Origin: Prodigiosinella confusarubida
Lineage (GTDB): Bacteria > Pseudomonadota > Gammaproteobacteria > Enterobacterales > Enterobacteriaceae
Assembly: GCF_002847015.1 (NCBI RefSeq)
Contig: NZ_CP025085.1
Coordinates: 3,038,001-3,102,000, forward strand
Length of the DNA stretch: 64,000 nucleotides
Direction: 5' to 3'
Position 1 is the stretch's first letter; each line of letters opens with the position of its first letter. The translations under genes were made by a program, and so were the position numbers. Of this stretch, positions 61,000 to 64,000 are shown in pieces. The notes below the pieces were generated by a model. That model saw nothing but the letters and a program-made list of their open reading frames with translations, was not told the DNA's origin and did not search any database.

Positions 61000-61644
61000 T
61001 TAAAGCAGTCCAGGGAAAATGGCTTTTATGCCTGTCACAATAAACTCAATGCCCAGAGACATCAGTAGTAACCCCATAATACGGGTGACAACGTTGATTC
61101 CCGTCTGTCCCAATACTTTGACCAAAATAGGTGCCACACGGAATAACAGCCAACAGCAAAAAGCAAAAATGGCAATCGCCAGAGAAAGTCCAAATAAATT
61201 CAACCAGCCATGATACCGGGAACTCCATACAATGGTTGAACTGATAGCGCCAGGCCCGGCCATCAAGGGTAAAGCCAGTGGCACAACACCAATGCTTTCA
61301 CGATTGGCAGTTTCCGTTTTTTCTTGCTTATTCTGTTTATCTTCCCCTAATTTACCGCTGATCATTGACATCGCAATGGTGACCACCAATATTCCTCCGG
61401 CAATACGGAATGAATCAATAGAAATTCCGAACAACCGCAGAATACTGTCGCCAAAGAAAAGAGACCCCCACAGAATACCGACGACTGAAAGATTGGCGGT
61501 CAAATTGGTCTTGTTACGCCCAATCGTCCCTTGATAATTAGTCATGCTAATGAAAACAGGCAAGATACCAATAGGGTTGATCAACGCAAACAACCCGATA
61601 AAAAACTTGATATAGCCGGAAAAATCTAACATGGACTGCATCAC
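61000..61644 (-). CDS. ychE: MarC family inner-membrane protein YchE
   Basis: This 214-residue protein has six membrane helices and is close to E. coli YchE. Conserved segments are KFFIGLFALINPIGILPVFIS, NLTANLSVVGILWG and GIDSFRIAGGILV-type (ISIDSFRIAGGILVVTIAMS), with PLALPLMAGPGAISSTIVW near 122. The function of the MarC family is not established. It is divergent from adhE, as in E. coli; a strong Fur-like box lies between them. Confidence 0.95.
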   Translation of the reverse strand: MMQSMLDFSGYIKFFIGLFALINPIGILPVFISMTNYQGTIGRNKTNLTANLSVVGILWGSLFFGDSILRLFGISIDSFRIAGGILVVTIAMSMISGKLGEDKQNKQEKTETANRESIGVVPLALPLMAGPGAISSTIVWSSRYHGWLNLFGLSLAIAIFAFCCWLLFRVAPILVKVLGQTGINVVTRIMGLLLMSLGIEFIVTGIKAIFPGLL

Positions 61645-61828
61645 AAACTACCTCAAATGGATTAATGTGAAAGCTAGGAACCTTCGCGGCGCTACTGTAA
61701 TGTAAGTAATGGCGCTAATCCATTACTTGATAGACATCTCACCTGTCATTTTTTCTCTATTTTCGATATAAACAGTGAAAGATTGCATTTGATGATGCTG
61801 ATTGTTTTATCTACAGATGCACAATGTT

Positions 61829-61847
61829 GATAATGATTCTCATAAAC
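61829..61847. promoter_or_regulatory. Strong Fur-box match between ychE and adhE
   Basis: GATAATGATTCTCATAAAC matches the 19-base Fur consensus at 15 positions, and its reverse complement contains the classical ATGAGAATCATTATC. It lies 185 bases upstream of ychE and 317 bases upstream of adhE. Apart from it, the 519-base gap 61645-62163 shows a TATAAT at 62081 and the adhE ribosome site AGGAG, but no gene. Confidence 0.7.
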
Positions 61848-62163
61848 GCGCTGCTGAATGGAGTCAGCATGGATAATTTTAGATAGAGATCACAAAATTA
61901 CTCTCTGTAAGTCGGTATGCTTCTTCTATAGCAAAGGACGGAAACCAGTAAGACATTCATAGACAGGAATTAAAACTATTTGGGAAATTGAAAGAGAAAA
62001 AAGGGAAACTACCAAGCTCTTTGAGTCAATGGAATAAGGACTAATGACACAAGTAATCCATAAGACTTTTGTCATCACCGTATAATCAAGTGTGATTATC
62101 TATACTTCTTACTTGTTCGACAGACCATTGACTGAAAGAATTTAACATTATCAGGAGAGCACT

Positions 62164-64000
62164 ATGGCCGTAACAAATGTTGCTGAACTTAACGCACTGG
62201 TCGCACGCGTGAAAAAAGCACAGCAGGAATTTGCTAACTATTCTCAAGAGCAGGTTGATAAAATTTTCAGCGCTGCCGCACTGGCTGCCTCGGACGCTCG
62301 CATACCGCTGGCAAAAATGGCTGTCACTGAATCCGGTATGGGGATTATTGAAGACAAGGTCATCAAAAACCATTTTGCCTCTGAATATATCTACAATGCT
62401 TATAAAGATGAGCAAACCTGTGGTGTCTTATCTGAAGATAAGACCTTCGGAACAATCACCATCGCGGAACCTATCGGTATTATTTGTGGTATCGTTCCTA
62501 CGACCAACCCGACGTCAACCGCAATTTTCAAAGCATTAATCAGCCTGAAAACCCGTAACGGCATCATTTTCTCCCCTCACCCACGCGCTAAAAACGCGAC
62601 TAATAAGGCCGCTGATATCGTGCTGCAAGCCGCTATCGCTGCAGGCGCACCGAAAGATATTATCGGTTGGATTGATGAACCTTCTGTTGAGCTTTCCAAT
62701 CAGTTAATGCATCACCCTGATATTAACCTGATCCTGGCTACCGGTGGTCCTGGCATGGTGAAAGCCGCATACAGCTCAGGCAAACCGGCTATCGGCGTCG
62801 GTGCGGGTAATACCCCGGTCGTCGTTGACGAAACCGCTGATATCAAACGTGCAGTCGCCTCCATCTTGATGTCAAAAACCTTTGATAACGGTGTTATCTG
62901 CGCGTCTGAACAATCCGTTATTGTGGTAGACAAAGCTTATGATGCCATGCGTGAGCGTTTTATGACTCATGGCGGTTACATGTTGAAAGGCAAAGAATTG
63001 GAAGCCGTTCAGGGTGTTTTACTGAAAAATGGCGCACTGAATGCAGCTATTGTCGGCCAGCCCGCGCCTCGTATTGCGGAAATGGCAGGTATCACTGTTC
63101 CAGCTGAAACCAAAGTGTTGATCGGCGAAGTCACCAATGTTGATGAGTCCGAACCTTTTGCTCACGAAAAACTCTCCCCTACGCTAGCTATGTATCGGGC
63201 CGATGATTTCGAAGATGCCGTCGTCAAAGCTGAAAAACTGGTGGCTATGGGGGGGATCGGTCACACATCCTGTCTGTACACCGATCAGGATAACCAGACT
63301 GCGCGGGTTAATTACTTCGGCGACAAGATGAAAACCGCCCGTATTCTGATCAACACCCCAGCATCCCAAGGTGGGATTGGGGATCTTTACAACTTCAAAC
63401 TCGCACCGTCATTGACATTAGGTTGTGGTTCTTGGGGCGGTAACTCCATCTCCGAGAACGTCGGGCCGAAACATCTGATCAACCGCAAAACAGTCGCTAA
63501 GCGAGCAGAAAATATGTTATGGCACAAGCTCCCCAAATCAATCTACTTCCGTCGTGGCTCTTTGCCAATCGCACTGGAAGAAGTGGCAACAGATGGTGCT
63601 AAACGCGCCTTTATCGTGACCGATCGCTTCTTGTTTAATAACGGTTACGCTGATCAGATCGTTGATGTACTGAAAAATTGCGGATTAGAAACCGATGTCT
63701 TCTTCGAGGTGGAAGCTGATCCAACGCTGAGCATCGTTCGCAAAGGCGCCGAACAGATGAATTCGTTCAAACCCGATGTCATTATCGCGCTTGGCGGTGG
63801 TTCACCGATGGATGCTGCCAAAATCATGTGGGTCATGTATGAACATCCTGATACCCACTTTGAAGATCTGGCATTGCGCTTTATGGATATCCGTAAGCGT
63901 ATCTACACCTTCCCGAAAATGGGTGTAAAAGCGAAATTAATCGCGGTCACGACAACATCCGGCACGGGTTCTGAAGTGACACCGTTTGCGGTAGTTACCG
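62164..64000 (+). CDS. adhE: Bifunctional acetaldehyde-CoA/alcohol dehydrogenase AdhE (5' part)
   Basis: This fermentation enzyme reduces acetyl-CoA to ethanol in two NADH steps and forms filaments (spirosomes). The gene runs off the window end; 612 codons are present of about 890. The aldehyde dehydrogenase half includes GIICGIVPTTNPTSTAIFKA and catalytic Cys in NGVICASEQS near residue 246. The iron-dependent alcohol dehydrogenase half begins near 450 with IALEEVATDGAKRAFIVTDR and holds IIALGGGSPMDAAKIMW; the metal-binding histidines are beyond the end. ATG at 62164 has AGGAG eight bases upstream. Confidence 0.97.
   Translation, partial: MAVTNVAELNALVARVKKAQQEFANYSQEQVDKIFSAAALAASDARIPLAKMAVTESGMGIIEDKVIKNHFASEYIYNAYKDEQTCGVLSEDKTFGTITIAEPIGIICGIVPTTNPTSTAIFKALISLKTRNGIIFSPHPRAKNATNKAADIVLQAAIAAGAPKDIIGWIDEPSVELSNQLMHHPDINLILATGGPGMVKAAYSSGKPAIGVGAGNTPVVVDETADIKRAVASILMSKTFDNGVICASEQSVIVVDKAYDAMRERFMTHGGYMLKGKELEAVQGVLLKNGALNAAIVGQPAPRIAEMAGITVPAETKVLIGEVTNVDESEPFAHEKLSPTLAMYRADDFEDAVVKAEKLVAMGGIGHTSCLYTDQDNQTARVNYFGDKMKTARILINTPASQGGIGDLYNFKLAPSLTLGCGSWGGNSISENVGPKHLINRKTVAKRAENMLWHKLPKSIYFRRGSLPIALEEVATDGAKRAFIVTDRFLFNNGYADQIVDVLKNCGLETDVFFEVEADPTLSIVRKGAEQMNSFKPDVIIALGGGSPMDAAKIMWVMYEHPDTHFEDLALRFMDIRKRIYTFPKMGVKAKLIAVTTTSGTGSEVTPFAVVT

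Follow-up and report, generated by a model that had tools for sequence, protein, structure and literature searches.

In Escherichia coli the gene adhE is controlled by Cra, FNR and Fis, and RNase III frees its ribosome-binding site. The E. coli ftnA gene, whose product is devoted to iron storage, is freed from H-NS silencing by Fur acting from a site far upstream of the start. Fur recognizes a palindrome whose 7-1-7 form is TGATAATNATTATCA, and whose known instances admit T/G and A/C alternatives. PMC1805755 cites FNR and Fis as regulators of E. coli adhE, distal Fur activation at ftnA is reported in a paper that appears by title in the reference list of PMC10219339, and PMC7867234 gives a 19-base Fur consensus, GATAATGATAATCATTATC. 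In the open-licence full-text literature we recognized no paper describing an enterobacterial adhE with a Fur site: the sampled text of a Yersinia pestis iron-starvation proteome (PMC2835676) makes no mention of alcohol dehydrogenase, the one match to adhE as a word start in the sampled text of a Y. enterocolitica Fur paper is "adhesin" in a reference, and an E. coli Fur paper holds one word-start match for adhE.

The stretch of Prodigiosinella confusarubida DNA analyzed here (64,000 nucleotides, hereafter the window) encodes the YchE family NAAT transporter ychE on the minus strand (61000..61644) and the bifunctional acetaldehyde-CoA/alcohol dehydrogenase adhE on the plus strand (62164..63999, cut by the window end). 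These divergent genes are separated by a gap of 519 bases (61645-62163), as the first-pass annotation had stated, and its 19-base classical Fur box GATAATGATTCTCATAAAC is indeed present on the plus strand at 61829..61847, matching GATAATGATAATCATTATC at 15 of 19 positions by direct count and at 16 of 19 once the centre position is written W. In the 7-1-7 form the core of the box, TGATAATGATTCTCA (61828..61842, plus strand), matches 13 of the 14 specified bases. Measured from the centre of the box, the ychE start is about 190 bases away and the adhE start 329. Scans of the window with the W form at up to 3 mismatches recovered 61829-61847 alone (0.04 expected from shuffles), and with the 7-1-7 form the core at 1 mismatch, the remaining 7 window matches having 3 each. 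The first-pass statement that the box is a better match than the tonB site is backed to the extent that no second 7-1-7 site of the window is below 3 mismatches. Across the whole genome the 7-1-7 motif retrieved 16 sites at 0 or 1 mismatch, the adhE-side core among them, and 79 sites at up to 2 mismatches vs 31 with the motif reversed as a backward-read control. The surroundings of 15 of the 16 one-mismatch-or-better sites, including the adhE-side one, were inspected: genes beside them include mntH, fepD/entS (an iron-siderophore permease gene adjoining entS), a feoA-like gene and mntP; a RyhB match begins 62 bases downstream of a one-mismatch site; and another such site lies beside an ABC-transporter binding protein that, from its sequence and neighbors, is probably of the siderophore type. 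Others fall within open frames or by genes with no evident iron role, and hence the motif by itself is no proof of a Fur operator. Two of the inspected sites, at one mismatch, lie upstream of an apparent fliA, judged by eye from its sequence (L129:1501-1515), and of a formate dehydrogenase-N alpha gene (L127:1501-1515). The genome encodes a Fur-family protein of 148 residues (L176:1474-1920; PF01475 at 161 bits) and a second, weaker member of the family.

To place the box in a comparative context we collected YchE relatives by protein similarity, taking the best 80 of the 467 genomes encoding one; adhE is divergent from ychE in all 80 of these loci. To them were added another genome of the window species, a single E. 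coli genome, 34 stretches from further genomes, 29 loci from a search with the gap (296 relatives, 65 with a match) and 4 loci carrying the composite pattern described below, giving 150 upstream regions including the window. A Cra-like box scoring at least 13 of 16 is present in 147 of these, the 3 lacking it being from Pantoea, and 131 of the 147 are distinct. When the Fur score is plotted against distance from the Cra-like box, a single peak emerges at a gap of 10 bases with the Fur motif upstream, where the mean score is 7.08 of 14 and 28 percent of the regions score at least 11, vs means of 3.1-5.7 at the other gaps between 0 and 59. At gaps of 6-14, 43 of the 131 distinct regions score at least 11/14 and 33 at least 12/14, vs 0.17 and 0.01 respectively expected from dinucleotide shuffles, figures that are to be read as counts rather than probabilities since the sequences are related and non-independent. 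Of the 43, 37 have a gap of exactly 10. The count includes four loci (L138, L139, L161 and L173) that had been fetched for carrying the composite pattern, and omitting them leaves 39 of 127. The exact Fur-plus-Cra composite occurs in 9 of 392 genomes of the family and 5 of 154 genera, with none for a reversed control. Perfect cores are found in L138, L139, L141 (Dickeya) and L161; in the other genome of the window species the box is weaker, at 12/14. By these comparisons the Fur box is a match beyond chance.

The Cra-like palindrome GCTGAATGGAGTCAGC (61853..61868, plus strand) starts 10 bases 3' of the Fur core, consists of near-invariant columns and as a predicted site has 1 mismatch to a Cra consensus. 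It is followed by a CRP/FNR-like site TAGATAGAGATCAC (61880..61893, plus strand; TTGATNNNNATCAA/C in many relatives), the right half of which, TCA, has the offset Cra+37 in 130 of the 131 regions, and by a predicted adhE -10 element, TATGCT (61916..61921, plus strand), corresponding to TAnnCT at Cra+63 in 120 of 131. We accordingly predict an adhE transcription start near 61928, the E. coli counterpart of which we take to agree with the published downstream adhE start; relative to it the CRP/FNR-like site is centred at about -41.5, the Cra-like box at -67.5 and the Fur box at -93. Further downstream, the adhE leader contains a long-range stem on the plus strand with its left arm at 62014..62031 and its right arm at 62126..62143, directly before the adhE ribosome-binding site. 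In 39 distinct rows 87 percent of the cells of this stem are paired, vs 36-52 percent when the arms are slid, and it covaries, with both A-T and T-A pairs exchanged for C-G; such a stem would fit RNase III control of the ribosome-binding site. On the other side of the gap the alignment profile revealed a strongly conserved block (61689..61705, minus strand), upstream of ychE and with the consensus GCGC-TAATGTAATG among relatives, which is possibly the ychE promoter. In Yersinia long insertions separate this block from the ychE start, and in Y. similis (L033) a run of CACCTAT-type tandem repeats lies between ychE and the block.

The first-pass annotation had pointed out that the site is closer to ychE, and in bases this is correct for the window, where about 190 bases separate them; as a pointer to ychE it is misleading. 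Among 34 carriers the distance from the box to the ychE start, which an operator of ychE would be expected to keep fixed, ranges from 190 to 530, while that to the adhE start is 294-338 and the 10-base gap to the Cra-like box is kept in 31. The Cra-like, CRP/FNR-like and -10 elements all lie on the adhE side of the box, and the rigid register with them ties the site to adhE. The distance from the box to the conserved ychE-side block is nonetheless nearly constant (136-163 in 33 of the 34), indicating that the ychE side is also under some constraint, and service to ychE, or to both genes, is an improbable but not negligible reading. The earlier suggestion of an iron link to adhE is supported as regards a Fur-type site and a probable connection to adhE, by way of its conserved fixed register with the adhE control elements. 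The same annotation had proposed that the box might belong to a small RNA, for which there is a precedent in the same genome, as RyhB likewise has a Fur box just upstream. Against this, the gap yields no Rfam family at gathering score (weak snoRNA-model noise only at a lax threshold), there is no terminator-like site in 61500-62250, the promoter scan picked up nothing resembling a promoter pair at the box, and what is conserved 3' of it is a set of predicted protein-binding sites and promoter elements; we therefore leave this proposal unsupported and regard an unrecognized iron-regulated small RNA as highly improbable. Elsewhere in the window, 48623-48729 matches the Yersinia small RNA Ysr224 in Rfam at 71 bits vs a gathering score of 70. 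It is unlikely, too, that the conserved site is bound by some other regulator with a similar palindrome or is functionless. Such a reading draws on one of 139 reordered control palindromes, a near neighbor of the TGAGAAT variant, which scores 20/131; against it, the next control scores 4, the Fur motif itself scores 43/131, and both halves of the site display the T/G and A/C alternatives characteristic of Fur sites.

We hence consider, with a probability of about 0.72, that the box is a genuine Fur operator serving adhE from a distal position. Iron-loaded Fur would bind around position -93 relative to the adhE start, bringing an iron signal into the control of ethanol fermentation by Cra (carbon) and FNR/CRP (oxygen or cAMP); with plentiful iron it might act, by a slight lean, as a distal activator or anti-repressor of adhE. 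This lean stems from the resemblance of the -93 position to that of reported Fur-activated genes and from the iron need of AdhE. According to passages of PMC10219339, Fur-activated sites in E. coli have a median position of -74 and repressed ones of -20, and anaerobic respiration genes are activated by Fur; AdhE declines in iron-depleted Shewanella (in a passage of PMC2667191), and adhE is listed as strongly negative in the iron and fur comparisons of a table excerpted from PMC6311696 on Clostridium difficile. The converse proposal, that Fur represses adhE by blocking an upstream promoter or by aiding Cra so that iron starvation switches fermentation on, is one that we entertain as a tentative but substantial alternative. 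The box is centred around -93 of the predicted main start, beyond the promoter core, a second conserved promoter over the box is absent from the alignment, and the promoter scan found none there, all of which weigh against repression. The upstream adhE start of E. coli, on the other hand, would presumably put the Fur box just downstream of a start, an arrangement favoring repression. PMC10219339 also describes repressed sites as having a clear motif and activated ones a weak motif, so that the strength of the present site counts against activation and is in keeping with repression. In addition, the excerpted data of PMC2631605 have adhE up 2.1-fold in Y. pseudotuberculosis and 3.4-fold in Y. 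pestis in human plasma vs LB; this rise in an iron-poor medium speaks for Fur repression, although glucose differs as well between the two media. These opposing Yersinia data keep repression at nearly equal odds, and activation of adhE by Fur is only slightly favored over it.

The distribution of the box was tallied by genus over named loci with a Cra-like box drawn from the best 80 hits, counting as carriers those scoring at least 11/14. Yersinia has 10 carriers of 12, the other two being weak at 9-10, Rahnella 7 of 8, Ewingella 2 of 2, Serratia 7 of 19 with the remaining 12 at 9-10, and the single loci of Dickeya, Hafnia, Edwardsiella and Enterobacillus are all carriers; Chimaeribacter (0 of 3, at 9-10 of 14) and Edaphovirga (0 of 1) have weak boxes only. 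The weak boxes of Serratia, Yersinia and Chimaeribacter, like the 12/14 box in the other genome of the window species, weigh against the Fur operator reading. No box reaching 11/14 was found in the sampled loci of Rouxiella (0/1), Pantoea (0/18), Erwinia (0/3) and Mixta (0/1). Outside this tally, 16 of 58 further distinct regions carry the box and 32 score below 9. In three Erwinia/Pantoea loci (L076, L080 and L081) a different palindrome, ACTTTAGTTGCTAAAGT, occupies the Fur slot upstream of the Cra-like box. A megablast search of the window gap against E. coli genomes gave no match; the E. coli adhE region, located through a more distant search, was taken from a single genome, which in the alignment has no Fur box in the slot (best 8/14). 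A quickly made ychE tree with 82 rows, uncertain both at its deep forks and in where it puts the window and E. coli, implies 4 changes of the trait when weak boxes are counted and 9 when they are not. This pattern suggests an old site that is absent, by loss or because it was never held, from E. coli and the Pantoea/Erwinia lineages; it may have decayed or been lost in some lineages, with gain in others as the alternative. Whether the adhE promoter was ancestrally a four-signal one that holds Fur, Cra and CRP/FNR elements in fixed register and makes ethanol fermentation directly iron-controlled in Yersinia, Serratia, Rahnella, Dickeya and relatives, its iron input having been lost in E. coli and Pantoea/Erwinia, is in our estimate evenly poised; if so, that loss would explain why the model organism E. 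coli never showed the iron input. The conserved register suggests a direct tuning of fermentation by iron in the carrier bacteria. Were this the case, iron would feed directly into a central fermentation switch of many enterobacteria, an input missing from the E. coli model, and rules drawn from E. coli adhE would not be transferable to the carriers. With the fixed four-part layout shared by many species, the direction in which Fur acts from a distance, and how it does so, can be tested directly.

In comparison with the known systems, the adhE site has its palindrome in common with the Fur boxes of ryhB, mntH, fepD/entS and feoA in the same genome, all of which have 0 or 1 mismatch. It differs from them in that they serve iron or manganese supply, whereas the adhE box precedes a fermentation enzyme and stands beside Cra-like and CRP/FNR-like sites. 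The ftnA gene resembles it in having its Fur site well upstream of the start, though ftnA stores iron and is freed from H-NS silencing, and adhE is a fermentation gene. The E. coli adhE region has the Cra-like box, the CRP/FNR-like site and the -10 element at spacings identical to those of the window, but its Fur slot scores at best 8/14, unlike the 13/14 of the window.
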